A stretch of DNA of 64,000 nt from Bolinopsis microptera (lineage: Eukaryota > Ctenophora > Tentaculata > Lobata > Bolinopsidae). Shown here in pieces: positions 17,501 through 64,000 of the stretch; position 1 is the stretch's first letter; each line of letters begins with the position of its first letter. The stretch covers positions 1,328,028-1,392,027 of the forward strand of contig NC_087079.1 in the NCBI RefSeq assembly GCF_026151205.1, written 5' to 3'. The position numbers and the translations under genes are program-made. The notes under the pieces are model-generated. The model was not told the DNA's origin. It saw only the letters and a list, made by a program, of their open reading frames with translations, and did not search any database.

Positions 17501-20500
17501 TTTGCTGACAACCATGCTCTGTGTCTTGCCAGCATTAATCTTCAGACCCGCATAGGCACTGTATTTGCAGAGAAGGTCAGTGGTTTCCTGCAGCCCCTCT
17601 TTTGAGTTATCTAACATAGCCATGTCATCAGCGTAATCAGTGTCCAAAAGATGTTTCTCTTCTACCCCGGGGGCTGGCAGCTGTAATAAAGCCCCTTTGC
17701 TAATGACCTTGTTCAGTTCCATAAGGTATGCCGAAAAATTCAAACAAAAGTTGAAGACTGGTGGTCCCTGTATATCACCTTGCCCAGTACCCGAGTTGAC
17801 ATCAAACCAACCTGTAACCTCTCCATTGACCCTAACAGCACTAACTGTGTGAGTGAAGAACGCCTTCATAATTCTAATGTACTTGTCAGGTAAGCCGTAG
17901 TGCTGCATACTTCTCCAAATGAACTGCCTGTCAATTGAATCAAAAGCTGCTTTGAAATCAACAAAATTAATATACAGAGGGATATTATACTCAATGCATT
18001 GGTGTATAATACAGCGGAGTGAATAAACCTGGTCAATACATAACCTGTATAAGAAACCAATAAAATATGGGCGTGGCCGGTGTGGACCGAAGATGGAAGA
18101 GTTGAAAGCTGAAATTTGTTTTGTGGTCTTTGAACCTAAGGATCAACAGATAAGAACATACTCATAATTATTCAAGGACATTTTGTTTTTTTGAACCGGT
18201 CTAACTTACAGAGACGTGAATATCTTGAATATTTATCGAATAATGATAATCTCAAATTTCTAGACAAATTAATGTCAATTAATGTCAATTAATGTCAATT
18301 AATGTCAATGTCAGTTTGGGGTTTTTATGGAATACTGACATTAATTGACGTTGCATTCCCCCCAATATAACAATGGAAATTCTCCCGATAAACTAAATAA
18401 TTAATCTAAATTATCACGACAATTTCATGGTATTGCTTGACAGATTCATGTCTCCAGTTCGTTTTCTGAAGTAATCAAATTCTGTTACAATCCTTGCTTT
18501 TCAATAAAAATGTATCTTATTTTCCCCCTAGATTGTAGTCATTATGGACCGCAGAAACTTCTCTGAGTAATCAACACGTCAATTTGGATCACGTGAGAAG
18601 AGACGAGAAAGAGGAAGTAGAAGGATGGCGGTAACGGAGTTTAAGAGCCTGCTCGGAGATGTGGAGAAGATAGGTCCCCCGATCAGATGGCTAGATAAAT
18701 CAATAGCAGCGGTCCTGATACTAGCAACAATATTCGGCACAATTGGCAACTCTCTCTCCATTGTATTCTTCACAGCTGAAGCAGTTAGGAACAGAAACAG
18801 TTTATACTTTAAGAGAGTGTACCAGGTTATCAACATGGTGGACCTGTTGACTTGTATCTCCTTATTCCCTGTTATCGATGCTTTTATTGAGGACCCCGGC
18901 TACCCAGACTTCAGTTCAAAAAGCCCCATATTCTTTGGGAACAGTGTGTTCTGCACAGTGTGGGGGATGCTGTGGGAGATCCTCCCCTCCTTCTCAGTCT
19001 ACCTAGTAGGGGTGTTGTGCATATCTAGACTTGTGCTCCTCACTTGGAAGCGAGCAATAATGGTACCCTCCATAGTGTACCTCTTCATGGCTACATACCT
19101 TCTGATAACCGTCAGTGTAAAGATCTTCCTCCTGATGACGTATGATGACATGGACTACGAGGCCATGTCACGCTACTGTTTCCTGGTGTCACATACTGAC
19201 GAGTATTTCGCACAGAACGAGATAACCACACTAGCAATCATGATAAGTCAGCTGGCACTGCCCATTATCCCTGTCACTGTCTGCTTTGTAATCACCATGG
19301 TCATACTTTTAAAGGACAGAAACAAGATACCAAACACTAATCGAACCTGCCCGCAGCGCCAAGCTGCAATAACCGTCACCATGGTAACATTACTCTACAT
19401 CTTGTTTAACATCCCGGTAGTGGTTAATTTCTCCTTCTTCCTCTGCCACCTGATCTACACGGAGGGGAAATTGGAGTTCGTTGAGGTGTACTCTAACCAA
19501 TACTTATTCTACTACGCCTGGCCCTCTGTCTACGTGGTGTGTGTCGCTATTAACGCAGCGCTTAACCCCTGTGTACTCTTCTGGAGGATGAAGAGGTACA
19601 GGACATTTGTAGTGAACGTTGTAGAGGGCGAATTTCGCGGCAATCCTCATGTGTTGAGCAAGCCAATTGAACCACGGGAGAGGAAAGTACAAGTTGAGAC
19701 CCGCTTGTGAATTAACAGATAAAGGATGAAGGGACCTTAGAAAAAGTTTTTTTCTCGTGCAAATCCTTTTATTACATTAATCGTATAAACCACTTTAGTG
19801 AAATCCGCAAAGTTGTATTTCATTCGCGCGCCGAGATATCCAGCCAAAACAATTTGAACCTGTGACGTCAATTATGTGAGTTGCTCTGATCCGCGCATAT
19901 AGAAATACAGGTAAAATGAGCGTGCGGGCCGACTAAATTACTAATTAAGAATAAATTAACAATTTACGATACTAACGAGCCTATAACCAATGGAGAGGAG
20001 ACTTTTTATGACCGGTTGAAAAAAGAATTATCACCCTACGATAACCATGAGCCGAGATACACCTGGAATAAGATTGAAGTCACACAGAAAGGCATGTAAA
20101 TTATGTATATTTATAGCTCCCAACGTAACACCTAGCAACTCCCTGTTTCGTACCACAGTTGATATATCAACATGTCATATCAACACAACACGGTCCTAAT
20201 AAAAATGGATCGGGTAGGTATGAAATGCATGTCTTCATTCCAGTTGGACAAGCACCAAGCACCAAGCTTTTAAGTTCTAACTCACTATGTGACACTACTT
20301 ATAACGTAAGCAAGATTTGCAACTATTACACCAAGCAATATTATACCAAGCATAGCAGACGAACACATCCACATTCGTTACGCTTTACACTCAAGTCACA
20401 GCAAACTAAAACGGTAAATTATAAATGAGTGTACAACTAAAGGCCGGTACATGCGCAGTACGTGCGTACTCAGATAGGACTAGAGGCGCCAAGGGCCAGC

Positions 20501-23500
20501 TAGTAAAATGTCTTCTACTACATCATACATTCTTTTTAATTGTGTCCATATCGGGTTTCAAACAAGTCAAAACAAAATAGCAGTTTGTGGTTTAGTTAGC
20601 GGATGCTACTTATCTTAGCTATTTATAAATAGAAATGCCTACTACAACTACAAAAATGAAGAAAGCCTTTCTGAGTTACATTTAACTATTATTATTAAAG
20701 AGAATTATTCGTAACTTAGACTAATTCAGTGCAACCAAAGATACCGCTCTCGCAAACGCCAAAGGTAACACGACGTAATTAAAACAGAACAGGACAAAAT
20801 GTTGACACGAGCAAAGGGTGCGCGCGCACGTTGGTCTTAACACATAAGTGACGTCACAGCCCAAAATTGCTATCAGCCAATAGGAGCGCGGCGTGATATT
20901 GCACGAATTATCGATTTCACAGTCCGGCGTATTTTTGGAGTCTACACACTTTCACAGGACTTAAACGCGAATATTTGGAAGTAAATTCTAAGGTCCCCTC
21001 ATCCTATAATGAAACTATCTGTTTTTAAACTATGGAAACCTATTGCTATGGCAACCTGCTAAATTATTTCTTTGTAAAACAGTGTGTTTGGTTCAGAATG
21101 GTAATACTATCAACCAATAACTATTATTCATTAATGATAAGCAGATAGCTGCTTATCATTACTACTTTGTGTAGCTTTTCAACGAAAGACGGTGTGAAGA
21201 ATTTTTCCTGCTGTTTTGATGCTGTTTGTACATTTGGCTAATGTTTTTAATCTTTGGATTTTTAATAGGAATAGCGGGAGAAAATCAGTCTTGTTTTGTG
21301 CTGAGCTGTTATAAAAATGAATTTCATAATATCTTTGTTGTGATTCAAACTCTGTGATTCAATGTGGAACCGTGAAACAGTGTGAAAGTGCTACCGTCTG
21401 ACACGGGGAAGTGTTACGGGAAATTAATTAGTATAGTTCATACTTCTTCTTTATCGTAGGAGGCTGTGGTCATCATCACTATTGGATAGAGTATTGAAAC
21501 CCTGTGCTTACCCCGGTAACATATTAATTAGTGGAGAAAAAAGTACATACTACAGTACGTGTAAAATCCGGATTGGAGTATTGTTTATGAGTATTGTTTA
21601 TGAGTCGCATGGTTGCAAACTACATAACAAATAATTTGAGATCGTGAATACGATGTTGTAACATTAAAACGTTGAGTAAATTCCTCTTCTGATAAGAGCA
21701 TTTTTCCTTGTCGCATCAAACGGGATCAATACAATTTTACACAGAATATATACTACAGTACCCCACAATTAATTGGGCACTTATAAAATGTAGTCATGTA
21801 ATAATTAGTAGTACTAAATATGTGCTACACCCCCCTAATTAGAGATCTCTTATTGCATGTGATAATACAAGGCGTGTACAGTGTACACTCTGTGTAGAGT
21901 GTATACACTCTGTGTACAGTGTACACTCTGTGTAGAGTGTATAACTGAGTGTAGGATTACACGCACAGCTGGTGTGGCAGTTTGAGTGCTTGTTACATAA
22001 AGGAGTAGTAACTAAAGACCGTTATAAGAGATACACTAGTCCGGCTCTAGTACAGGGACAATGGACATGAAAAGGAGCTACCTAGTACCTACAAGTTACA
22101 ACACCTTGTACTAGAGACTTGGAGAGACCTTGTACTAGAGACTTGGAGAGACCTTGTACTAAACACTTGGAGAGACCTTGTACTAGAGACTTGGAGAGAC
22201 CTTGTACTAGACACTTGGAGACCTTGTACTGAACACTTGGAGAGACCTTGTACTAGAGACTTGGAGAGACCTTGTACTAGACACTTGGAGACCTTGTACT
22301 AAACACTTGGAGAGACCTTGTACTAGAGACTTGGAGAGACCTTGTACTAGACACTTGGAGACCTTGTACTAAACACTTGGAGACCTTGTACTAAACACTT
22401 GGAGAGACCTTGTACTAAACACTTGGAGACCTTGTACTAAACACTTTGAGAGACCTTGTACTAGAGACTTGGAGAGACCTTGTACTAAACACTTGGAGAC
22501 CTTGTACTAAACACTTGGAGAGACCTTGTACTAGAGACTTGGAGAGACCTTGTACTAAACACTTGGAGAGACCTTGTACTAAACACTTGGAGACCTCATA
22601 CTAAACACTTGAAGAGACCTTGTACTAGACACTTCAGGAGACCTTGTACTAGAGACTTGGAGAGACCTTGTACTAGACACTTGGAGACCTTGTACTAAAC
22701 ACTTGGAGAGACCTTGTACTAAACACTTGGAGAGACCTTGTACTAGACACTTGTAGAGACCTTGTACTAGAGACTTGGAGAGACCTTGTACTAAACACTT
22801 GGAGAGACCTTGTATTAAAGACTTCGGGAGACCTTGTACTAGACACTTCGGGAGACCTTGTACTAGAAACTTCGGGAGACCTTGTACTAGACACTTGGAG
22901 AGACCTTGTACTAAACACTTGGAGAGACCTTGTACTAAACACTTCGGGAGACCTTGTACTAGACACTTCGGGAGACCTTGTACTAGACACTTGGGGAGAC
23001 CTTGTACTAGACACTTCGGGAGACCTTGTACTAGACACTTCGGGAGACCTTGTACTAGACACTTGGGGAGACCTTGTACTAGACACTTGTAGAGACCTTG
23101 TACTAGACACTTCGGGAGACCTTGTACTAGAAACTTCGGGAGACCTTGTACTAGACACTTGGAGAGACCTTGTACTAGACACTTCGGGAGACCTTGTACT
23201 AGACACTTCGGGAGACCTTGTACTAGACACTTGGAGAGACCTTGTACTAGACACTTGGAGAGACCTTGTACTAGACACTTCGGGAGACCTTGTACTATAC
23301 ACTTCGGGAGACCTTGTACTAGACACTTGGAGAGACCTTGTACTAGACACTTGGGGAGACCTTGTACTAGACACTTGGGGAGACCTTGTACTAGACACTT
23401 GGGGAGACCTTGTACTAGACACTTGGAGAGACCTTGTACTAGACACTTGGGGAGACCTTGTACTAGACACTTGGGGAGACCTTGTACTAGACACTTGGGG

Positions 23501-26500
23501 AGACCTTGTACTAGACACTTGGGGAGACCTTGTACTAGACACTTCGGGAGACCTTGTACTAGAGACTTGTAGAGACCTTGTACTAGACACTTGTAGAGAC
23601 CTTGTACTAAACACTTGGGGAGACCTTGTACTATACACTTCGGGAGACCTTGTACTAGACACTTCGGGAGACCTTGTACTAGACACTTCGGGAGACCTTG
23701 TACTAGACACTTGTAGAGACCTTGTACTAGACACTTGTAGAGACCTTGTACTAAACACTTGGGGATACCTTGTACTAAACACTTGGGGAGACCTTGTACG
23801 AGCCACTTCGGGAGACCTTGTAGAGACCTTGTACTAGACAATGGTAAGATTTTTAAAGCACCACAAATTTAAGCAAACTCGCTTTATCAGATACCACTTC
23901 ACAAACGTTCAACAAAAGTTATATCAGATTATAATGTTATAATGATTAAATACCTGCCAGAATCCAGACGGACAGTTTGACATTCTCAGGACATATATCA
24001 CATCCCCTTCTTTAACAGACAGCCCCTTCTCATCTGGAAAAATAGCATTAGTTCACTAGTTCAGGAAGATTCAGTGACAATATTACATATCATCAATAAT
24101 ATTGAGAGCAGAAAGGGAGTGTCCTGAGAAACTAATCATAATTGTTAATCAAAGTCTGTACAGATGAACAACTAAAGACTACAATGATTTACCTTGATGT
24201 TCAGGTGGCATAGTGCCTGAGAACAGATTAAGTGCAGTACACACACAAATGTAATCCTGCTCATCTTCATTAACGATCACAGTTCCTCCTTTCTGAAAGG
24301 AAAAGAATATAATTATTTTCTATACAACTTCTATTTGCTATAAACATTTCAATTAAGGAATCTAAGAAATTTTGCGAAGTGTTATTGATAATCAAATTGA
24401 TTTGAATCATACAAACTCAGGTATTTTTGGTGACATCAGCAAAGCCTAGAACTTTCCCTAACCAAGCTTTCCCTAACCAAGCTATTAACCAAGCAGTTAA
24501 CAAGTTAAAAACTCTCAGCATATTATAACAGCTCCCCAAATGCAATACTGAATAGGGGGTGATGCAACGTCAATTAATGTCAATTAATGTCAATTAATGT
24601 CAATTAATGTCAATTAATGTCAATTAATGTCAATGTCAGTTTTGCAAAATTTTGGAATACTGACATTAATTGACACGATATTTTTCGACCAGAGATTATG
24701 TAGTTCTACCATATTTTTAGCACTTTAGAACGTTTATATCATCAATTTATTCACTACTATCACATATGGAAATGTGAAATGTGAAAAAAATTCAGATCAT
24801 TAAACAATAAAACTAAAATAATACGGTTTCCCGAAATTTAATTTTCTTAAATGGGCGTGGCCATCCAAGGGCGTGGTTCTCAACATCATCAGAACTTAAA
24901 ACCCACATTAAACGAAATGCCTTCATGACATTTATATTTGAATAACGAATCTTAAACAGCTAACATTACTCCTTCATACTAAAAAAGCCGATTTTAGATA
25001 TTTTACCTGTATAAGAAACCAATAAAATATGGGCGTGGCCGGTGGGGACCGAAGATGGAAGAGTTGGAAGCTGAAATTTTTTTTGGTGGTCTTTGAACCT
25101 AAAGATCAACAGATAAGAACATACTCATAATTATTCAAGGACATTTTGTTTTTTTGAACCAGTCTAACTTACATAGACGTGAATATCTTGAATATTTATC
25201 GAATAATGATAATCTCAAATTTCAAGACATATTAATGTCAATTAATGTCAATTAATGTCAATTAATGTCAATTAATGTCAATTAATGTCAATTAATGTCA
25301 ATTAATGTCAATTAATGTCAATGTCAGTTTGGGGTTTTTATGGAATACTGACATTAATTGACGTTGCATTCCCCCCACTGAATATTAACGCAGCGATACC
25401 ATTCCCAATAAAACCAAAAATCGAATAACCACATATTCTGCATAACTATATCTGTTATCATGTGAAATTTTATAAAAGTCGTAGCTCGTTAATTTTGGAG
25501 ACATCGAATAACCACATATTCTGCATAACTATTATATCTGACAAGTATTTAGTATAATTAATATTGAGTTTACCAAGAACCAGGGTGTGGAAACTGACCA
25601 GCACAGTAGCGGAGGGTTGCGGGTATTTAGGGTTATTTTCTATCGTCCTATCAATGTCAAATATCTTCAAATCATCCACACTTGGCTCCCAAAACCAAAG
25701 GAACGGATCACTCTGAAAGACGTACTTTGTAACATAGTTATGGAATAGTAACAAAAAACAACAATGGTAGAAGATTGTTGGTGATCATTTCCATTTTTGC
25801 CCCACATTTATTGGTGAAGATAAATAAAATGTAAACCTAAAACTTGTAACTTCCAACTAGTTTAAAATGTTCCAATCGCAATGATAGACTACAAATAAAT
25901 AACAGATTTATTTTAACAAATAACAGATTGATTATAGATAAATAAAAGATTTGTTACGTATGTGAATATTATAAAGGAAATGAGGAGAGTATAATACCCA
26001 GGTAAAATGATTCTGCCGTTTTCTGACTTCAGTGCTTTTAAGAAGTGTTAAAGACCATTAAAAAATCCAAAGTTTTCAAGTACTTTAAATGACACATATT
26101 TGACAAATCTTGGCATTTTAGAAGGTTCCAAAAGGGGATCTTTGGGAGCCTGCAATTGATTCTTTAATGGTTTCTGATAGTTTTCAGGGAAAGTTCTTGA
26201 CCCAAAAAGGAAATTTGCGTTAAAGAATTCAGAATTTTAAAAGGTCTTTAAGCACATTTACCAGAAAACGGCAGAATTGCTTATAATATAACGTTACCTG
26301 CTGCATGAAAGTGGGAATACTGAGAAGCGAATCAACAAAGTGCTTTATATGAGGAAGGTGCTTCAGAGCAAAGCTTTCTGTAGTTGAGCGCTCGAATATT
26401 TGGCGACCTATAGTGAAAAGAAGTGCTGAAATCTAGTTCAAATCACAAAATAAACATTTAAAGGTTAAAGAGAATTCATTTCGCATCTTTAGTTCAGCCA

Positions 26501-29815: not shown

Positions 29816-32518
29816 AACAATTTCAAGAAAACAACAATTTTATTTAGTATCAGTTAAAGCAGACAAAAACATATTTTATAAATATAACTAGTGCAAACTT
29901 TAGACCATATATATTAGGGGACTTGGAGTAGCAAGAGAGTGACCAGAAAGTATATGTATACTTTTACCAAAAATACGTCGAAATGAATCCAGGGTGATAC
30001 AGGATCTAGGAGTGCAGACCATAAAGTTTACGCACCCACCCTTGCCTCCTGAATTCTTGGTTGGAAAGACAATTATGCAAAATTGGTCGTTTATACTCCA
30101 AGTCCCTTTGTTAATAGAAGTAGTATTATTTATGTCTGGAGTTAGCTTCATTCAGTAATAACAATATCAATATAATCAATATTAATATCAATATCAGACT
30201 AAACTATCAAATAAATAAATTATCAAATATCAATTATTAATTCACTCTGATTAAAAAGTTATAAATTAGGATATCTAATATTTAAGAATTACAACTACAA
30301 GTTGTTAAAAACGCCCAAAATAGATCTGAGATATTTTCAGTCTGTAGTACAATAGTGATAGCAATAGTTTAAATTATGTTATGTGCCGCTGCAATTAGAT
30401 TAAATTACTGTAACTTAAAATTGTTTGGAGTCCAAGTCTCTTTTAAGTCAGCAGCCTGTGATTGTATTAATAGTGCTTTCGTTCTCAATTTTATCAAGTT
30501 AATGGAAGTTTCTAGACAATTACTTGAAGTTAAAATTTTTTTATGAACAGTGTTCCAAAGCTTGGCTGCATTAAACAAAAAGGTATTTGATTTATTTAGA
30601 AGAATAACTGTTAGACTCGTTGCACGGTTTGAAATGTTGATAGCCTCATAAAGGGAGTATGGGCAGTGGTACTTGATAATCTTAGAGAATTCTAAAATAC
30701 AGTGATATTTGTACAAGTTTTGAGCCGTAAGAATTTTTAACCTATTAAAAATGGGTTTCGTATGCTCCTTTTCAAAATGTTTATGGCCTAGTATTTGCAT
30801 GCCATATGGTCTAGTTCTTGCACATGTTGATTGTTTATCTAGATATGAGTCGAGATCACCAAAAAGGATTCTTATACAGTGCTTCTGTGTGATAAAAAGA
30901 CTATCATTTGACCGTTCTTTGAGGACAACTCCCCAAACACTTATACCATAGCTTAGATGTGATTCAAATAGAGCATTATATATTTTTAAATATAGTTCAG
31001 CAGGTATCGGGTGCCGAATTCTACAGATTGCACCAGTCATGGACCTCAGTTTTTTACGGATGTAGTGCATGTGGGCAGACCAGTTTAGCTTACTATCTAT
31101 AACAACACCTAAGAATTTGGTATCCTTGACTTTAGTGATAACCTTACCATTGATGAATATTGATCTAGATTCATCTAGCAGGGTACCAAATGGTCTAGTC
31201 CGTGCACAAGTGTCATCATATTCAGAGGCAGGTTTAAAATGGATGTAGCAGCATTTTGACATGTTGATATGAAGTAGATTACATTTCATATAAATCGAGA
31301 CATGTTTAAGCACTAAGTTGGCTTTTTTGTATGTTGCTTCTCTAGACGGTCCTGATATGAAGATATTAGTGTCATCAGCATAAAGTACAAATTTCACTTC
31401 ACTGTCTGAAAAACAGTTTACTATATCGTTCATATACAGTAGGAAGAGTAATGGCCCTAGAATTGACCCTTGAGGAACCCCGAATTCCACATCCATTGTT
31501 TCTGATGGTACATCGTTATACATCACATACTGCTTTCTGTTAGTCAAGTAGCTTTTTAGTAAAGTTAGTGCTGTGCCCCTAATACCATAGGAATTTAGCT
31601 TGCTTAGAAGAATATTATGATCAAGGGTGTCAAAGGCTTTGCTCAAGTCAATGAATATGCCTAGGACATGTTTATTCCTAGCCAGGGACTTTGTAACAGA
31701 GTCTATAGATTTGTGTAGAGCATGGGCGGTAGAATGGCCTTTTCTAAATCCAAACTGCGAGTCTGTTAGTACACCTTTAGATGTGAAGAAATTATAGAGC
31801 CGTTTGTAAATGACCTTCTCGAAAATTTTTCCAAATAAAGGTAATATTGATACAGGCCGATAATTTTCAATACATTCCTTATTGTCTTTCTTGTAAATAG
31901 GAATAACTTTACCAGTTTTAAAAATACTTGGGAATGTTCCACTTTGTATACATATGTTGTAAAGCCTAGCCAAGGTACCAGCGATGAGCTTTGCCGATTT
32001 TTTTACAACGATTATAGGAATGTCACTTGCCTTGCCATTTTGAAAATCTCTGATGACCTCGATAATCTCATTTTCATTAGTTTCTTCTAGGTATATGGAG
32101 TCAGACACTGAGTTAGACATGAATTGAGCAAATGATTCTACTGGTTCCAGAGAAATACTATTGTTCGACAATACATTTCTATTGAGATTGCTTGCAAGAG
32201 ATGTAAAGTATTCACAAAATTTGTTAGCAATTATTCGTCTGCAAGTAATTCTCTGGCCATCTATGACAAAATCGTCCTTACATCTAGACATATTCTTACC
32301 ACGGAGTTCATTGATAACTTCCCAGGTCTTTTTTGAGTTCATGCTGTACTTCTCGAATTTTCTAGTATAGCACATAGCTTTTGCCATATTTATTGAGTTT
32401 TTGAGAAACTTGTTGAATTCCTTGTAGCAGATGTGCTTGTTTTGATCCCCGTCAGGTAGTTTTAATGTACAAGTCTTCTTCCATTCGAAATACAACCTAG
32501 CTTTCTTGTCTATGGAAT
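29816..32518 (-). mobile_element. 5'-truncated CR1/Jockey-type LINE inserted in repeat R1
   Basis: The minus-strand frame runs from the 5' junction at about 32518 to the stop near 30405, about 700 residues without interruption. Visible motifs: NYRPVSILPLFGKIFEKVIY, QFGFRKGHSTAHAL, FIDLSKAFDTLDHNILLSKL, FGVPQGSILGPLLFLLY and the catalytic YADDTNIF, followed by the CR1-like C-terminal domain (ISVWGVVLKERS, ILFGDLDSYLD). The apurinic endonuclease is missing because of 5' truncation. The first codons of the apparent open frame (PSRICPEKASFTL) come from the flanking repeat, not the LINE. The 3' untranslated part extends to about 29816. An uninterrupted frame points to a young copy. Confidence 0.85.
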
Positions 32519-33060
32519 TAAGTGTGAACGAGGCCTTCTCCGGACAAATTCTTGAAGGCAAGTCTTCTCTAGCTGAAGTCCGAACAGTATTGATTCACGA
32601 TGTCAATCCTTCGCAGCTCGGTGAGGCAGTGGTGCATCTCGCCGATCTACCGTGGTTGCGAGAAGAATTATTTGATGCGCGGCGCGACCCAGTAGTGCAT
32701 CGCGCTACAAGAACAGTATAATTTATCTGATAGTGTATTACTAAGGTGCTCTGCTGATAATTGTAGTAAAGTAATCAATACATGCTAAAAAAATGACCTC
32801 TGACGAGGTTCGAACCGGGATGAGCTCAATAACATAAGCCGCCTTAGCCACTGTGCTACTAGAGGCTCAGCAGATTTACAATATGTAACGCTATAATCTA
32901 TATAAAAATACGCGCACGCAAGTAACTTTTCGTTATTTATGGATCCGAATAAAAGCGACATACCCACAATTCTGAGAAATAAACCTTGCGTGACATAAAG
33001 CGACATAATCGCAATTTCGCCCACACATTTGCTAGAACACCTCCTCGGATAGAGCAAAAC
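32519..33060. mobile_element. Repeat R1, copy B, right part, with tRNA-like segment
   Basis: It continues R1 after the LINE, from gtgtgaacgaggcctt. On the minus strand at about 32790-32865 lies the best tRNA-like segment of the family: gcctct pairs with agaggt, the A-box is tagcacagtgg and the B-box is ggttcgaacct. The anticodon arm is imperfect, so I do not call it a functional tRNA gene. A 121-bp MITE is inserted at 32590-32710. Confidence 0.65.
32590..32710. mobile_element. Short MITE, copy 2 (121 bp)
   Basis: It is an inverted relative of 29109-29240, here flanked by an exact 8-bp duplication gaacagta (32582-32589 and 32711-32718). The empty site is visible in R1 copies A and C, where the single gaact(c)gta continues directly. 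Confidence 0.8.
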
Positions 33061-51307: not shown

Positions 51308-52680
51308 CTATCCTATTTCCTCAGATTTGTTTGATTCTCCTGAATCGTCCTGTCTTTCGGGTGCATTAGTGCAACTTAATCCTTGACATTGGCCACATGC
51401 AGGTAGACATTTAAAGCCATACTTCCGGCAGGAACACCTTAAGTACTTACAAGGGTTCTCAACCTCCACAGAGCAATTGCAGCAAATGAGGTTGAGCATC
51501 CCTGCCGGGGCAATCGCAGCTTTAGTCGGGATTGGCCGGTAGTATCCTTCAGAACTCATCTCCCATCCATAATGTAGTGAATTTAGACTTGCAGTGTCGA
51601 GTGTCACCCAGTTATGGTACTTAAGATATGATCTTAATATATGCTCAGTTGCAGAGGATGTAGACGGTGGTAGCCTTGATGGGTTGAGTTTTTTTTTTGT
51701 TGCTATCATTCTACTGTAGCTGAGACATCTGAAAGTTTCAAGTGCCTTGATTTTATCTCCATAGATATGTTGAAACAAGGAGAGGCCAGCTTCAATTACT
51801 TCATTTGTTGAAACTCTCACAGAGAGTAATGATGCTAAATGACCCTCCTCATGAAAAGAAACTGCCTTTTTCAATATCTTCACCTTACCAAAGCCATGTA
51901 TACTGCTGACCGTGTCACATCCTGAGAAACTGTGAACAAACAGTAATATGCGTTTTATGTTGGCATCAAGAGCATTTACTATTTTACTGATCGAGTGTGA
52001 GCCGTTTCTGGTCGTCATCACAATTTCATTGTGATTCTCAGTAAAATGATGAATAACGAGGCAAAGTATATCAGTATCCTCTGCTTTTACCTCAACATCT
52101 TCGTAGAAGGACAAGTTTAAAGCTTTACTAGCTACCATGGTATCAGCATCATCAGTAGCTACATGTACTTCAATTCCATGTTCTGTAAAAACGTTCGACA
52201 GAAGCTTTATAAGCTCATGCTTGTTCTTTGAGTTGCTGAACAGTTTTTTCATCGGAACTGTGCACACAGTAGTACTTTTAATAGCTATATCAGAGCAGTA
52301 TAGCAGTATGCCTTGATTCTTCGCTGATGCTCATGATCTTTTGTTGATCGGGCATAGCCATCAAACACAACAATCACTTTCCGCTGTTCGGATTTCGGAA
52401 CTAGCTTAAGGTATTCATTAGCTATGTCGCCGTATGTTTCAAAGCCTGTGAACGAGGTAACTTGATAGAGTAGCCATCCACCATCAATTATTAATGGGGA
52501 GGATGGGTTGCTAAATGTCACAGTACAATCAACAACATTCTTGAGGTATTGCCCAAGGGCTGCCTTGTTTGCCTTTCTCAACATCTGCTCATTGTTTAAA
52601 AGACTCATCGGCATTGCTGTGAGCTCATATTGGAAGCTTTCCTCCAGTGTAGACTCTCGTTCAGATGCGAAGCAGGTCGA
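51308..52680 (-). pseudogene. PIN-like mobile-family protein, minus copy (frameshifted, lacks N-terminus)
   Basis: It reads SFQYELTAMPMSLLNNEQML, then SSPLIIDGGWLLYQV, KVIVVFDGYARSTKDHEHQR, a frameshift near 52280, HVATDDADTMVASKAL, VKAEDTDILCLVIHHF and FSGCDTVSSIHGFGKVKILK. The cysteine-rich C-terminus is CKYLRCSCRKYGFKCLPACG. The aspartates in IIDGG, VVFDG, DDADT and EDTDIL are spaced as in FLAP/PIN nucleases. Proteins with this layout occur in many near-identical copies in cnidarian and arthropod genomes and behave like mobile-element genes. The function is unproven. The frameshift and missing N-terminal region make this copy a pseudogene. Confidence 0.65.
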
Positions 52681-53630
52681 GGTCAGTACTCCAAAGCTCT
52701 ACGGCTGTATCTTGAGCAGATTACCGTACTTGAGATTCAGTATGGGGCACTAGTCAAAACGTTCAAGGTCGTAGGTCTGCACACAGTTCGATATAATGAA
52801 CACGAGTGGTCTGGTGTGTGGACAGACCTGTCGATCGAACAGCGACTAATGAAGGCTGCAAAGTCATCAGGGGGTTTGTCTGGAGGGAGAATGCGAACTC
52901 ATGAATCTGCCCATAAGTTATGGACTGCAACCCTCAATCAAATGGCGTTGATAAACGAGAGTGTCGATGAAGCTATTGCAGACTTATCCAATAAAAGAAC
53001 AACAACAAAAGTTTCTCAGGATGTGACACGGTCAGCAGTATACATGGCTTTGGTAAGGTGAAGATATTGAAAAAGGCAGTTTCTTTTCATGAGGAGGGTC
53101 ATTAGCATCATTACTCTCTGTGAGAGTTTCAACAAATGAAGTAATTGAAGCTGGCCTCTCCTTGTTTCAACATATCTATGGAGATAAAATCAAGGCACTT
53201 GAAACTTTCAGATGTCTCAGCTACAGTAGAATGATAGCAACAAAAAAAACTCAACCCATCAAGGCTACCACCGTCTACATCCTCTGCAACTGAGCATATA
53301 TTAAGATCATATCTTCAGTACCATAACTGGGTGACACTCGACACTGCAAGTCTAAATTCACTACATTATGGATGGGAGATGAGTTCTGAAGGATACTACC
53401 GGCCAATCCCGACTAAAGCTGCGATTGCCCCGGCAGGAATGCTCAACCTCATTTGCTGCAATTGCTCTGTGGAGGTTGAGAACCCTTGTAAGTACTTAAG
53501 GTGTTCCTGCCGGAAGTATGGCTTTAAATGTCTACCTGCATGTGGCCAATGTCAAGGATTAAGTTGCACTAATGCACCCGAAAGACAGGACGATTCAGGA
53601 GAATCAAACAAATCTGAGGAAATGGGATAG
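52681..53630 (+). pseudogene. PIN-like mobile-family protein, plus copy (internally deleted, frameshifted)
   Basis: It starts with ALRLYLEQITVLEIQYGALV and WSGVWTDLSIEQRLMKAAKS, then GGLSGGRMRTHESAHKLW, the region that precedes the nuclease domain in this family. At 53011 it jumps into the C-terminal half (CDTVSSIHG equivalent), so the nuclease core is deleted. Compared with the left arm it has a one-base deletion in the gagggtcat(t)tagc stretch near 53098 and a shorter A-run near 53243, both shifting frame. The last 99 codons (53331-53630) are open and almost identical to the minus copy. Confidence 0.65.
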
Positions 53631-58407: not shown

Positions 58408-59611
58408 ATGGTAGAGAGAACCCGACAGTTTAAGGTTGAAGTAAAGAAACAACGTAACCTCTCTGGAACTACAGGAGTAGACTCTAACATCCTACCAACC
58501 AAGTCGCACCACACCCAGTTTACTAAAAACGCTACTAGCGTCCTCCACACTATCAAACAGGTTACTTGATTCTCGTCCGTTTGATGAAAAACGACGAGTA
58601 AATCATTGCTATTAGGTATTCAGTCACTGTCATGATTTGTTGGTATACCGCCCCTACCGTGCTTATTTAATCAGTTAATTAATTAATTGATTAATAAGTT
58701 AATTGATTAATTATCGCAGCTAGATGAGCTAGTGGAAGAAACACGTGAGAAATACATAGGATCTCCCTGCAGCAATGAGTTCTCTAGTCTCTCCGATCGA
58801 CAGAGGTAATTCATCCTCTTAACTTCATATTAAAAATGTTGTTTGTTTGCTATTAAAAAAAGTTGTTTGAATGCTTTTGATGTGGCTGATAACAGGCAAC
58901 AGCACATTTATTATTTACTAATGCCTACTTAATAAATTCTCTAGACTCTAATTACATTATCTAGCAAATAAGTAATTCTGTATAATATCTATCAGGTTGG
59001 ATATAGACATGTCAGCTAACATGTTTATGGTTCAATGTAAGGACGCTATCTCTTCTCTTTCTAAAAGAGTCTCCGATACCAACGGTTCGTGAAGTTATTT
59101 TACATCGTCAATAGTTATAACTTTATAAGCTCTGATATTTTACCATAATTTGTATATTGACTGTTGTTTTAAAAGAACAAATTGTTCTCTCAGTTCAATA
59201 AATTTGGTAAGTCCTTCTCTCAATCACTCTTGTATTATCAGGGCAACTGAAGACACACCAAGAAGGAGTGATATTCGTGCTGACCCACTGTCTGAAGCTG
59301 ACGTGTGACAAGTACTCTAAAACTAAAGCTATCCACGTGAAGCAGACGTTGGAACAGCACAGACTTGCTAAACTCAGCTCACATCGCAACACTATTGACA
59401 AGATACGGAATATGGAGCAGGTAATTTTAGATTAGGTTGGGGTGGGGCGGGGTGGAGTGGAGTGGAGTGGGGTGGGGTGGGGTGGGGTGGGGTGGGGTGG
59501 AGTGGAGTGGGGTGGGATGGGGTGGGGTGGGGTGGGGTGGGGTGGGGTGGGGTGGGGTGGGGTGGGTACACTGAATTCACTTGCTTTACTTTACAGTCAC
59601 TGAATGACTGA
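58408..59611 (+). CDS. Syntaxin-18-like protein, N-terminal domain only
   Basis: Exons: 58408-58560, 58720-58805, 58996-59084, 59242-59420, and a tiny last exon 59597-59611 that adds SLND and a stop; about 173 residues. The sequence aligns with the N-terminal helical region of syntaxin-18, an ER SNARE for Golgi-to-ER traffic: FTKNATSVLHTIKQLDELVE, TREKYIGSPCSNEFSSLSD, RLDIDMSANMFMVQCKDAIS, LTHCLKLTCDKYSKTKAI and VKQTLEQHRLAKLS. Full-length syntaxin-18 is about 335 residues and ends with a SNARE helix and a membrane anchor; neither is found before a polyadenylation signal at about 59689 and the convergent gene at 59873. Either this is a truncated paralog, or the real 3' exons lie elsewhere or were lost. 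The ATG lies five bases after an acceptor-like AG. Confidence 0.75.
59436..59567 (+). repeat. GGGGT/GGAGT G-rich tandem repeat
   Basis: A pentanucleotide array (ggggt with ggagt variants) lies in the last intron of the syntaxin-18-like gene. Runs of four G every five bases make it a strong G-quadruplex candidate in the transcript. The proline/histidine/threonine frame on the opposite strand is an artefact. Confidence 0.9.
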
Positions 59612-59872: not shown

Positions 59873-62800
59873 TCAACTATATGATATTATTCTGACGGAA
59901 TCTTTAACTTCTTTCAACAAATCATTCAATCCTGACACTTCATTCACTGATCGAATATTTGAACGTAGTAAAATAACTGAACAATATACTCTTGCTCTTG
60001 ATATCATCAGGTAAAGTGGAGCTATTCCAGTCTCCTCAATTCTAGCATCTAGTAAAACTATAGCTGCAGGGTATTCAGCTGAATAACAATCCTTGACGTC
60101 GAGAACGTCTATATTCCCATCAGATGCCCTATCTGCAACTGTCGTTATTTCAGGAAACTCACTGGACAAAGAGGAATCCACCACTACTCCGCACGACACA
60201 CCTGTTTTACATAGCTTATCAAGTTCTTTAGTCAAGATAGCAACAATCATTGAACCATCATCCACCAAGTGAACAACAGTCCGAGGTCCATGTATGTAGT
60301 GGCCTGGTCTGAGCATTGGAAAAACTATGTTTGGATCTCCTGATTTCACTTCCTGAGATAACCGTCTTCTTATTTTAGTTAGGTTATCTGCTATATCCCG
60401 GGTATTTCTTAAGTTCAGAAATAATGTAACACAACAGGGGAAATCTAGTATGAAATTCGACTGGGCTCTCATCTTATATTCATTAGACACGTGCATCTGA
60501 GTTGAATCGCACGTTAACCAGACCAAGCATGATTTTTTCGATGATTCATTGAATCTCTTCTGCAATTCTTCCGTTATCTTTCCATTTTCAGGGTGGTTTT
60601 TTAAACCTGCCTGAAAATCATCAAGAAACACATGTACGTTTTTCAAAAAACGGGTTTTGATCAGCTCACTAAGCATATCCTCTGAAGAAGCAGACTTCCT
60701 TATTGGTATCTGAACTAACACTAGCTGAAAAAAGGCAGACCATTTCAAAGATTTCATGTCCATCACCTTGTAACTGAGTCCTGCTTCTTTTAACGGATCT
60801 TCATACCCTTTAATATTCGATTCGCTATACTTGTTTCCCTTATAAATGATCAACACAACTCTATTGTTTTCGTTAGATTTGATCAACTTTATGATTTTAG
60901 CTAACAAGATGATAGTTTTTCCCGAACCAGAAGGTCCATTTATCAGGAGCAATTTCTGATCGCTAATGAAGGCTTTATGCTGTTCGGCTGTCAAATGTTC
61001 AATTTTGAGAAAGTCCTTAAAAATATTAGTTCCATCAGCGAGATTAGCAGCTTCTATATCTAAAACGTTGATCACGTTTGGGTTCTTAGGTTGGTTTTTG
61101 CTGAGATATGTTATCCTCCCTCTCCTCAGCTCCTCATCTATGTCCTTTACACACTTTCCCAAACTGCACTTTAGTTCATCACACTGGTTCTTATCAGTGC
61201 GCCAGATTGCAAGTAGTATCTCTTTAGCCACCTCAAAACCAGCAATTACAGGAACACCCCCGGATATTGAATCAGTGCGCCAGATTGCAAGTAGTATCTC
61301 TTTAGCCACCTCAAAACCAGCAATTACAGGAACACCCCCGGATATTGAATCAGTGCGCCAGATTGCAAGTAGTATCTCTTTAGCCACCTCAAAACCAGCA
61401 ATTACAGGAACACCCCCGGATATTGAATCAGTGCGCCAGATTGCAAGTAGTATATCTTTAGCCACCTCAAAACCAGCAATTACAGGAACACCCCCGGATA
61501 TTGAATCAGTGCGCCAGATTGCAAGTAGTATATCTTTAACCACCTCAAAACCAGCAATTACAGGAACACCCCCGGATATTGAATCAGTGCGCCAGATTGC
61601 AAGTAGTATCTCTTTAGCCACCTCAAAACCAGCAATTACAGGAACACCCCCGGATATTGAATCAGTGCGCCAGATTGCAAGTAGTATCTCTTTAGCCACC
61701 TCAAAACCAGCAATTACAGGAACACCCCCGGATATTGAATCAGTGCGCCAGATTGCAAGTAGTATCTCTTTAGCCACCTCAAAACCAGCAATTACAGGAA
61801 CACCCCCGGATATTGAATCAGTGCGCCAGATTGCAAGTAGTATCTCTTTAGCCACCTCAAAACCAGCAATTACAGGAACACCCCCGGATATTGAATCAGT
61901 GCGCCAGATTGCAAGTAGTATCTCTTTAGCCACCTCAAAACCAGCAATTACAGGAACACCCCCGGATATTGAATCAGTGCGCCAGATTGCAAGTAGTATC
62001 TCTTTAGCCACCTCAAAACCAGCAATTACAGGAACACCCCCGGATATTGAATCAGTGCGCCAGATTGCAAGTAGTATCTCTTTAGCCACCTCAAAACCAG
62101 CAATTACAGGAACACCCCCGGATATTGAATCAGTGCGCCAGATTGCAAGTAGTATCTCTTTAGCCACCTCAAAACCAGCAATTACAGGAACACCCCCGGA
62201 TATTGAATCAGTGCGCCAGATTGCAAGTAGTATCTCTTTAGCCACCTCAAAACCAGCAATTACAGGAACACCCCCGGATATTGAATCAGTGCGCCAGATT
62301 GCAAGTAGTATCTCTTTAGCCACCTCAAAACCAGCAATTACAGGAACACCCCCGGATATTGAATCAGTGCGCCAGATTGCAAGTAGTATATCTTTAGCCA
62401 CCTCAAAACCAGCAATTACAGGAACACCCCCGGATATTGAATCAGTGCGCCAGATTGCAAGTAGTATCTCTTTAGCCACCTCAAAACCAGCAATTACAGG
62501 AACACCCCCGGATATTGAATCAGTGCGCCAGATTGCAAGTAGTATATCTTTAACCACCTCAAAACCAGCAATTACAGGAACACCCCCGGATATTGAATCA
62601 GTGCGCCAGATTGCAAGTAGTATATCTTTAGCCACCTCAAAACCAGCAATTACAGGAACACCCCCGGATATTGAATCAGTGCGCCAGATTGCAAGTAGTA
62701 TCTCTTTAGCCACCTCAAAACCAGCAATTACAGGAACACCCCCGGATATTGAATCAGTGCGCCAGATTGCAAGTAGTATCTCTTTAGCCACCTCAAAACC

Positions 62801-64000
62801 AGCAATTACAGGAACACCCCCGGATATTGAATCAGTGCGCCAGATTGCAAGTAGTATCTCTTTAGCCACCTCAAAACCAGCAATTACAGGAACACCCCCG
62901 GATATTGAATCAGTGCGCCAGATTGCAAGTAGTATCTCTTTAGCCACCTCAAAACCAGCAATTACAGGAACACCCCCGGATATTGAATCAGTGCGCCAGA
63001 TTGCAAGTAGTATCTCTTTAGCCACCTCAAAACCAGCAATTACAGGAACACCCCCGGATATTGAATCAGTGCGCCAGATTGCAAGTAGTATCTCTTTAGC
63101 CACCTCAAAACCAGCAATTACAGGAACACCCCCGGATATTGAATCAGTGCGCCAGATTGCAAGTAGTATCTCTTTAGCCACCTCAAAACCAGCAATTACA
63201 GGAACACCCCCGGATATTGAATCAGTGCGCCAGATTGCAAGTAGTATCTCTTTAGCCACCTCAAAACCAGCAATTACAGGAACACCCCCGGATATTGAAT
63301 CAGTGCGCCAGATTGCAAGTAGTATATCTTTAGCCACCTCAAAACCAGCAATTACAGGAACACCCCCGGATATTGAATCAGTGCGCCAGATTGCAAGTAG
63401 TATCTCTTTAGCCACCTCAAAACCAGCAATTACAGGAACACCCCCGGATATTGAATCAGTGCGCCAGATTGCAAGTAGTATCTCTTTAGCCACCTCAAAA
63501 CCAGCAATTACAGGAACACCCCCGGATATTGAATCAGTGCGCCAGATTGCAAGTAGTATCTCTTTAGCCACCTCAAAACCAGCAATTACAGGAACACCCC
63601 CGGATATTGAATCAGTGCGCCAGATTGCAAGTAGTATCTCTTTAGCCACCTCAAAACCAGCAATTACAGGAACACCCCCGGATATTGAATCAGTGCGCCA
63701 GATTGCAAGTAGTATCTCTTTAGCCACCTCAAAACCAGCAATTACAGGAACACCCCCGGATATTGAATCAGTGCGCCAGATTGCAAGTAGTATCTCTTTA
63801 GCCACCTCAAAACCAGCAATTACAGGAACACCCCCGGATATTGAATCAGTGCGCCAGATTGCAAGTAGTATCTCTTTAGCCACCTCAAAACCAGCAATTA
63901 CAGGAACACCCCCGGATATTGAATCAGTGCGCCAGATTGCAAGTAGTATCTCTTTAGCCACCTCAAAACCAGCAATTACAGGAACACCCCCGGATATTGA
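59873..64000 (-). CDS. SF1-like P-loop NTPase with massive 26-residue repeat N-terminus (partial)
   Basis: The minus-strand frame is open from the window edge to TGA at 59873-59875; the true start lies outside. The N-terminal part is about 36 tandem 26-residue units (AKEILLAIWRTDSISGGVPV and six more residues). After the last unit the sequence changes at KNQCDELKCSLGKCVKD. The C-terminal 400 residues show superfamily-1 helicase-like motifs: EHLTAEQHKAFI (Q-like), Walker A LLINGPSGSGKTIILL, Walker B HVFLDDFQ, motif III VWLTCDSTQM, LRNTRDIADNL and motif VI YLMISRARVYC. Such domains occur in Schlafen-like and DUF2075-type proteins. Helicase activity is unproven. There are no frameshifts over more than 4 kb, so selection or very recent expansion keeps it open. 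The gene converges on the syntaxin-18-like gene. Confidence 0.75.
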   Translation of the reverse strand, partial: SISGGVPVIAGFEVAKEILLAIWRTDSISGGVPVIAGFEVAKEILLAIWRTDSISGGVPVIAGFEVAKEILLAIWRTDSISGGVPVIAGFEVAKEILLAIWRTDSISGGVPVIAGFEVAKEILLAIWRTDSISGGVPVIAGFEVAKEILLAIWRTDSISGGVPVIAGFEVAKEILLAIWRTDSISGGVPVIAGFEVAKEILLAIWRTDSISGGVPVIAGFEVAKDILLAIWRTDSISGGVPVIAGFEVAKEILLAIWRTDSISGGVPVIAGFEVAKEILLAIWRTDSISGGVPVIAGFEVAKEILLAIWRTDSISGGVPVIAGFEVAKEILLAIWRTDSISGGVPVIAGFEVAKEILLAIWRTDSISGGVPVIAGFEVAKEILLAIWRTDSISGGVPVIAGFEVAKEILLAIWRTDSISGGVPVIAGFEVAKEILLAIWRTDSISGGVPVIAGFEVAKDILLAIWRTDSISGGVPVIAGFEVVKDILLAIWRTDSISGGVPVIAGFEVAKEILLAIWRTDSISGGVPVIAGFEVAKDILLAIWRTDSISGGVPVIAGFEVAKEILLAIWRTDSISGGVPVIAGFEVAKEILLAIWRTDSISGGVPVIAGFEVAKEILLAIWRTDSISGGVPVIAGFEVAKEILLAIWRTDSISGGVPVIAGFEVAKEILLAIWRTDSISGGVPVIAGFEVAKEILLAIWRTDSISGGVPVIAGFEVAKEILLAIWRTDSISGGVPVIAGFEVAKEILLAIWRTDSISGGVPVIAGFEVAKEILLAIWRTDSISGGVPVIAGFEVAKEILLAIWRTDSISGGVPVIAGFEVVKDILLAIWRTDSISGGVPVIAGFEVAKDILLAIWRTDSISGGVPVIAGFEVAKEILLAIWRTDSISGGVPVIAGFEVAKEILLAIWRTDSISGGVPVIAGFEVAKEILLAIWRTDKNQCDELKCSLGKCVKDIDEELRRGRITYLSKNQPKNPNVINVLDIEAANLADGTNIFKDFLKIEHLTAEQHKAFISDQKLLLINGPSGSGKTIILLAKIIKLIKSNENNRVVLIIYKGNKYSESNIKGYEDPLKEAGLSYKVMDMKSLKWSAFFQLVLVQIPIRKSASSEDMLSELIKTRFLKNVHVFLDDFQAGLKNHPENGKITEELQKRFNESSKKSCLVWLTCDSTQMHVSNEYKMRAQSNFILDFPCCVTLFLNLRNTRDIADNLTKIRRRLSQEVKSGDPNIVFPMLRPGHYIHGPRTVVHLVDDGSMIVAILTKELDKLCKTGVSCGVVVDSSLSSEFPEITTVADRASDGNIDVLDVKDCYSAEYPAAIVLLDARIEETGIAPLYLMISRARVYCSVILLRSNIRSVNEVSGLNDLLKEVKDSVRIISYS
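61193..64000 (-). repeat. 78-bp coding tandem repeat, 36 units to window edge
   Basis: The period is exactly 78 bp: 2808 bp equals 36 periods. Units are identical except at two sites: codon 3 is GAG or GAT (Glu/Asp) and codon 1 is GCT or GTT (Ala/Val). The Val variant always carries Asp and lies next to another Asp unit, in two places (about 61455-61545 and 62540-62630), suggesting block duplication. The array continues beyond 64000. Confidence 0.98.

Follow-up and report, generated by a model that had tools for sequence, protein, structure and literature searches.

The window analyzed here is a 64,000-nucleotide stretch of the genome of the ctenophore Bolinopsis microptera (contig NC_087079.1, called C8 in what follows; C8:1328028-1392027), and its final portion holds part of a minus-strand gene whose coding region carries a long array of near-identical 78-bp units. 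The part of the gene that falls within the window occupies positions 59873 to 64000, and the whole gene extends from 66956 to 59873 in window-equivalent numbering (C8:1394983-1387900). Judged from its sequence, the gene is composed of a NERD-like nuclease domain, 64 units of 26 residues each, and a helicase domain that resembles those of superfamily 1 (SF1). The unique C-terminal part, at positions 59873 to 61192, includes this SF1-like helicase domain and the stop codon (59873-59875), and it was delimited by its open frame, Pfam matches, a match to PcrA, and sequence motifs. Beside it, the array fills positions 61193 to 64000 with 36 units of 78 bp (26 residues, DSISGGVPVIAGFEVAKEILLAIWRT) and continues beyond the window to position 66185 (C8:1394212), for a total of 64 units. 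A 6-bp direct repeat read from the sequence, ACTGAT on the coding strand, lies at the 3′ end of the array (positions 61193 to 61198), and its partner is located 5′ of the first unit, outside the window.

Tandem Repeats Finder reports the in-window portion of the array as a repeat of period 78 with 36.0 copies, 99% matches, and a score of 5560. This agrees with the original prediction, made from the letters of the window, which proposed about 36 near-identical 26-residue units. However, the window edge cuts the minus-strand array internally, and the contig total is 64. The whole array (C8:1389220-1394212) is contiguous and spans 4993 bp; 63 units measure 78 bp each, and the remaining one measures 79 bp. 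When a single unit was used as a query against the genome (264,652,675 bases in 232 contigs), 64 matches were recovered, 54 of them at 100% identity. All are located in the C8 array, and this one-unit query found no copies elsewhere in the 264.65 Mb. After the first unit come 63 others, of which 53 share one sequence; the last has it too, apart from three trailing bases included by the split. The variants comprise five units with an E to D change, two with A to V plus E to D, one with E to K, and the one of 79 bp, and the first unit of the array carries three amino acid changes. Five distinct substitutions occur among the units, and every one of them changes an amino acid; this number is too small for judging selection on the array itself.

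Within the window, the minus-strand frame stays open over 1375 residues and joins the array directly to a domain with the motifs GPSGSGKT, FLDDFQ, LRNTRD, and SRAR. Thus, the predicted continuity of the repeats with an NTPase domain bearing Walker A, DDF, LRNTR, and SRAR motifs is confirmed, and the array and its in-window frame are real. The plus strand opposite the array also has an open frame, of 1013 residues, in which the unit is likewise stop-free; the first 113 residues of this frame have no Pfam match at 0.1. The array had also been described as perfectly in frame, and this is correct within the window. Outside it, the unit at C8:1393198-1393276 (window-equivalent 65171-65249) measures 79 bp owing to an extra T in a T run, and it splits the frame: the frame on the N-terminal side stops within the length of that unit, and the helicase-ward frame opens inside the odd unit. 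Apart from this one unit, the array consists of tandem in-frame units within an open frame, as the proposal of a coding minisatellite had implied.

The 79-bp unit may be an assembly error, or it may denote a dead allele. In the latter case, the array would be a minisatellite that grew neutrally in a pseudogene already lost to function. Members of this family do die, as judged by the stops present in 14 of 117 genomic matches to the helicase half, and the frame break itself is in keeping with such a loss. However, the remaining 63 units, the 256 unique residues at the N-terminus, and the 439 residues of the helicase contain no further stop or frame break, and all the motifs that were sought are kept. 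Moreover, one T too many in a run of T, within a long near-identical array, is also plausible as a consensus error. On balance, we consider the loss of this gene to be unlikely.

A different concern is that the copy number is an artefact of assembly, with the true units far fewer (or more). For the published B. microptera assembly, wtdbg was used, followed by polishing with Illumina reads (PMC10232365). If that is the genome examined here, the short reads could not have been placed in such an array, and it is plausible that a one-base error was left uncorrected in 5 kb of near-identical sequence. Regardless, identical variant units appear in several locations, as would be the case for a genuine array, the 5 kb fit within long-read length, and the array passes in the correct frame into unique coding sequence on both sides. 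A grossly mistaken count seems very improbable.

The original prediction envisaged a repeat protein that ends in a motor. Instead, 256 unique residues precede the array, with the start Met directly after an in-frame TGA (C8:1391500-1400500 examined). These residues are NERD-like, such that the array sits between a nuclease and a helicase. Nucleases of the NERD type are expected to carry the residues E, D, and ExK, and the window gene keeps YEAEV, YDY, and IIEVK, which correspond to this E ... D ... ExK set. Relatives of the gene in the same genome were sampled at 38 paralog loci (L012-L045 and L053-L056), L041-L045 and L053-L056 being manual choices made mainly because of their long frames. 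An alignment of 27 rows, called A1 and including the two halves of the window gene, was compared with the NERD model PF08378. A match at 0.01 or better was obtained for 25 of the 27 rows (best 6.7e-9), and the other two are the window gene's halves. Several paralogs exceed the curated NERD cut-off of 22.1 bits (L041 at 33.3, L017 at 29.4, L043 at 25, L042 at 23, and L044 at 22.3); L032 falls below it at 21.3.

The helicase half, when queried together with one unit, scores 23.2 bits against PF00580 (UvrD-helicase; cut-off 23) and 22.5 bits against PF04851 (ResIII; cut-off 22.5). The corresponding values for L017 are 21.6 and 24.6. ResIII is a model of another helicase class than SF1A. Searches of the PDB with the A1 profile find PcrA at E 0.0017, and the stretches around motifs I, II, III, and IV are aligned. 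These motifs, together with VI, carry the names used for SF1 helicases. The window gene has the Walker A sequence GPSGSGKT, and its CDSTQ, LRNT, and SRAR sequences occur at the places expected of SF1 motifs III, IV, and VI. Among the PADLOC matches of the motor, GajB accounts for 14 of the 23 listed (best 3.7e-6). We call the motor SF1-like because of the PcrA match, the positions of CDSTQ, LRNT, and SRAR, and the matches to GajB, which is of the UvrD type, and the SF1-like motor anticipated by the original prediction is thereby supported. A Walker A match is present in 32 of 35 sequences surveyed, and motif II, which is FLDDFQ in the window gene, reads DDxQ or DDxH in 34 of the 35 and DEAQ in L044; several of these entries are partial.

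Other P-loop families were weighed as well. In A1, NPHP3_N matches 24 of the 27 rows (best 6.1e-8), UvrD-helicase 21 (9.4e-6), nSTAND_NTPase5 20 (2.8e-6), ResIII 18, and SLFN-g3_helicase 16 (best 2.9e-4). In the tables for single members, matches to P-loop families fall mostly around Walker A, which is common to many such families. An assignment of the window gene to NACHT or STAND was tried and rejected, with 17.3 bits for PF05729 (cut-off 26.7), 22.9 for PF25199 (cut-off 34), and 18.5 for PF24883 (cut-off 24.8); L043 does pass NPHP3_N, for which L017 scores 23.6, under the cut-off of 24.8. An affiliation with Schlafen proteins, raised earlier as a lead for profile searches, was likewise dismissed, given that PF09848 (SLFN-g3_helicase) yields 14.5 bits for the window gene and 16.9 for L017 with a cut-off of 24. 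The NCBIfam models return only generic P-loop or helicase matches for the motor, far below their cut-offs, and none for the N-terminus. It seems likely that proteins of this NERD-like nuclease-helicase family work on nucleic acids.

The family is large. Searches of the genome recover at least 117 matches to the helicase half (103 without an internal stop and 14 with) and at least 141 to the N-terminal part; such counts are lower bounds, and some genes are counted twice through split matches. By eye, about 85 of the 117 helicase matches fall within open frames that are 700 to 870 codons long. Such single-frame genes might suggest a foreign family, but this idea was rejected because matches to glutamate receptors in the same genome include 10 of 32 in frames of more than 900 codons. 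A 31-row tree places the window gene with L032, L020, L015, L012, L014, L016, and L017 (98/94), and then with L018 (99/96), on a long branch. Its top identity to any row of the tree is 46%. One locus outside the tree, at C8:374151, has stops in its helicase half and is 53% identical to the N-terminal part of the window gene.

Relatives were also sought beyond this genome. Among viral contigs, 57 pattern matches included no relative. Among genome contigs, 413 pattern matches included no close relative and two weak ones, for which the common region lies only around Walker A. In 296 genomes of the phylum of one weak relative, no match was found at 1e-8, a threshold that is too strict for inference because the genome at the center of that search itself matches at only 4.5e-7 and was not recovered. 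Among the papers searched, none contained both ctenophore and NERD as whole words, a criterion that does not cover the plural form. The paper on the immune repertoire of Mnemiopsis reports 38 NACHT genes (PMC11797021), and a search for the term NERD found it absent from the main text of that paper (PMC11797021).

The paralogs also bear on the origin of the array. A segment of the ILLAIW type, located before a motif of the CSLG type, occurs once in each of the 23 aligned paralogs with frames of 690 residues or more. Thus, on the evidence of these sequences, the 64 copies represent a derived state that arose on the window gene's own branch, and the original suggestion that the unit is an amplified segment from beside the motor is borne out. 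On the coding strand, ACTGAT ends the sequence before the first unit and also ends the last unit, after which unique helicase sequence begins. The unit length is the exact distance between two ACTGAT copies, 78 bp, which is a multiple of three. The segment was probably amplified in the window gene through this direct repeat at its ends, which at 6 bp is short. As judged from these ends, slippage or unequal exchange between two ACTGAT copies could have produced the first in-frame duplication, and slippage, unequal exchange, or gene conversion might then account for later growth and homogenization.

Changes in length are also found elsewhere in the family. Three loci, L042 (C1:1590500-1595000), L053 (C1:1496300-1500300), and L055 (C7:1986400-1990400), form a subfamily with 298, 233, and 236 residues, respectively, between the LTTEQ segment and Walker A. 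These stretches are rich in repeats, with a 14-residue period in L042. In L036, an in-frame 219-bp duplication (100% identity) is located between nuclease and motor, and the frame of this member stops before motif VI. Because the three repeat-rich stretches and the L036 duplication affect the same region, in-frame length change between the domains has occurred more than once, with the frames staying open. Duplication is also evident in the nuclease part of L040 (201 bp). In L041, a second nuclease-like stretch is apparent by eye, and Pfam reported one NERD stretch only. L043 (C7:17767500-17772000) has C-terminal ankyrin repeats, with roughly three 99-bp units, nearly identical to one another, at the border of the sequence examined. 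No tandem repeat row was found for L054 and L056, which had been picked for their long frames. Members of the L042/L053/L055 subfamily also have a hydrophobic segment near the N-terminus that, by eye, could be membrane-spanning, and an MTDMSHTDMSH repeat opens two of them.

If translated in full, 64 standard units would have a computed mass of about 174 kDa, a grand average of hydropathy of 0.83, and an isoelectric point of 4.6. Such an array could fold, aggregate, or serve as a flexible tether. The strongest amphipathic-helix signal of the unit is at FEVAKEILLAIWR (moment 0.55), and VPVIAG is prone to form a strand. A peak of this kind, along with the strand-prone stretch, is what might be seen if the array folded into a ligand-binding solenoid and acted as a switch for the nuclease and a STAND-like NTPase, as the repeats of NLR-type receptors do. 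For repeat proteins, AlphaFold 2 is reported to predict beta-solenoids that are confident yet unrealistic (PMC11795689). The ankyrin repeats at the C-terminus of L043 and the matches of NPHP3_N and nSTAND models to many members around Walker A could be taken in the same sense. However, sequence searches of the PDB with six units give a single hit, which is unconvincing (E 1.1), and near-identical units offer no variation for specificity. The Pfam matches of six units (P7_N_core at 8.7e-10 over 16 residues, DUF433 at 5.3e-7, and others) were rejected as probable artefacts of periodicity because they involve short stretches of unrelated families, although two exceed their cut-offs. Furthermore, motifs III, IV, and VI (CDSTQ, LRNT, and SRAR) favor a helicase. 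A role of the array as a repeat-protein sensor is therefore quite improbable in our estimation.

Evidence for selection comes from recent paralog pairs, whose ratios of nonsynonymous to synonymous differences per site (pN/pS) were obtained with simple counting methods from members taken for their long open frames, with gene conversion outside the counting. The whole-gene ratio of the corresponding substitution rates (dN/dS) ranges from 0.39 to 1.46 in 14 close pairs. A scan by region of seven tree-disjoint pairs then led to a split of the genes at Walker A, which is consequently post hoc. Under a strict setting, in which eight residues around every gap and all codons with three changes were removed, these seven recent pairs give a pN/pS of 1.56 from Walker A to the end (95% bootstrap interval 1.22-2.08) and 0.60 from the N-terminus to Walker A (0.47-0.79). 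When the filters were omitted and equal weights were used, the values were 1.47 (1.23-1.80) after Walker A and 0.55 (0.46-0.66) before it. By region, again under the strict setting, the ratio reaches 2.63 (1.60-4.99) for residues 601-716 and is 0.61 (0.42-0.90) for the NERD core; residues 367-446 alone give 1.41 (0.93-2.39), which is not clearly greater than 1.

Pair by pair, the motor half yields 1.07, 1.08, 1.29, 1.30, 2.73, and 3.35, and the seventh pair has nine amino acid changes and zero synonymous ones. For the N-terminal half, six of the seven pairs have ratios below 1, and L023/L029, where one synonymous change was counted, has 2.29. As a control, six pairs of glutamate receptors from the same genome have whole-gene pN/pS values of 0.43 to 0.66, with every upper bound below 1. 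Seven receptor loci were supplied, and the four that passed the limits on identity and length (L052, L057, L058, and L059; pS 0.065-0.093) provide these pairs, which are not independent. In searches with ionotropic glutamate receptor loci of this genome, a fragment from L051 matches ML032222a, a Mnemiopsis leidyi receptor, at 4.2e-34 (next other entry 1.4e-22). Long queries from L050 and L052 retrieve kainate receptors of the vertebrate type first, under a threshold too strict, perhaps, for short ligand-domain entries. At the pS of the seven family pairs, 44 stop changes would be expected under neutrality, and the compared frames contain none; this absence is partly by construction because the frames were chosen as open. 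The repeat region of L042 and L053 has a ratio of 1.76, based on few changes.

We conclude that the array very probably arose by tandem amplification of a segment between the domains of a single gene, itself a member of a large family of NERD-like nuclease-helicases. For the overall picture, we favor a coding minisatellite of recent origin. Its host family of nuclease-helicases would be diversifying and probably defensive, with an inter-domain stretch that tolerates changes in length, and we give this reading a probability of roughly one half. The motor might load the protein on foreign or abnormal nucleic acid, which the NERD domain would then cut, and nuclease-helicase proteins of this kind could act as a defense against viruses or mobile elements. 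The expansion of the family and the pN/pS above 1 in its motor half lend indirect support to such a role. Whether defense is in fact the role of the family is, from the sequences, an evenly balanced proposition. The stretch between nuclease and motor would act as a spacer that is tolerant of length, and the array may alter reach or assembly while leaving both active sites untouched. It is more speculative, and indeed rather doubtful, that this is a large, fast-evolving innate defense family of ctenophores (NERD nuclease and SF1 helicase) in which selection diversifies the surface of the motor, and the distance bridged between nuclease and motor is tuned by copying inter-domain segments in tandem and in frame, here to a tether of some 1660 residues.

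Several observations weigh against our favored reading. The N-terminus of the window gene itself (282 residues) matches NERD PF08378 with only 14.8 bits (E 0.042), and the curated cut-off is 22.1. The assembly contains one break in the reading frame. Because standard units lack a Met and the helicase part has its first one behind Walker A, a genuine break would prevent this allele from yielding a complete motor. Motif II is DDxQ rather than the DExQ expected of SF1A, and the activity of the motor is therefore not certain. Non-SF1 P-loop families match the motor as strongly or more so, mostly around Walker A; L043 passes NPHP3_N at 31.3 bits (over residues 330-386 only), and the window gene just reaches ResIII. 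Finally, the halves compared for selection were chosen post hoc and from long open frames, gene conversion was outside the counting, and the pairs leave out the window gene, given its top identities of 46% in the tree and, in the N-terminal part, 53% with C8:374151.

The locus pairs a large, defense-like animal gene family bearing signs of an arms race with a natural experiment on the separation of nuclease and motor. If translated, the array is a near-perfect polymer of a 26-residue repeat within a cellular enzyme. If it is not, the locus offers a clear example of a minisatellite within a gene that is dying.

Other features of the region can be noted briefly. Near the 3′ end of the gene, Tandem Repeats Finder detects about 26 copies of TGGGG at positions 59438 to 59566. 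Plus-strand stretches flank the gene on both sides (window about 59279-59420 and L009 4345-5090). They resemble exons of a syntaxin-18-like gene, and the nuclease-helicase gene may thus be located in an intron of that gene, on the opposite strand; Pfam and PDB searches did not confirm this. A short coding-like stretch (VQMLEMENESMYSELTALSSE) is present three times at L009 4403-4764, with long G runs between the copies. Farther away in the window, a 24-bp tandem array at positions 22103 to 23822 has about 72 copies with 91% matches and long open frames on both strands. Reverse-transcriptase frames are found on the minus strand at positions 16799 to 18142 and 30405 to 32594 (RVT_1, E 3.4e-16 and 1.1e-36, respectively). 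Near-identical protein stretches (LNPSRLPPSTSSATEHILRSYL...) at positions 51308 to 52330 (minus) and 53238 to 53630 (plus) form an inverted duplication, and the longer one is without a Pfam match.

Among the closest known systems are the bacterial NERD-domain helicases (PF08378 plus a UvrD-like part; PADLOC NERD+UvrD, C3a187). Like the family described here, these unite a NERD-type nuclease and a UvrD-like helicase in one protein, and the motif residues are kept. However, the similarity to C3a187 is limited to a weak profile match (E 0.019), and scans of viral contigs, genome contigs, and the 296 genomes yielded no clear relative. The ctenophore family also differs in being large and in residing in an animal genome, and the window gene has its array between the domains. 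The best PADLOC matches of the motor are to GajB, the UvrD-like helicase of the anti-phage system Gabija, and the best of these covers about 50 residues around Walker A. Gabija keeps its nuclease in a separate protein, one that comes from a different family.

In group III Schlafen proteins of animals, an SF1 helicase-like part comes after an N-terminal part of the nuclease type, which is the order seen in the window gene. In contrast, the SLFN-g3_helicase model stays below its cut-off here, and the N-terminal part is NERD-like with no Schlafen core matched. The SF1A helicases PcrA and UvrD offer a further comparison, for motifs I to IV of this family align with those of PcrA. Yet DDxQ replaces DEYQ at motif II, the match reaches only E 0.0017, and the accessory parts are unmatched. 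Lastly, the array is akin to coding minisatellites in its multiple-of-three unit, its near-identical copies, and the direct repeat at its ends. What sets it apart is that its 64 units are of a conserved inter-domain segment and lie between a nuclease and a motor.

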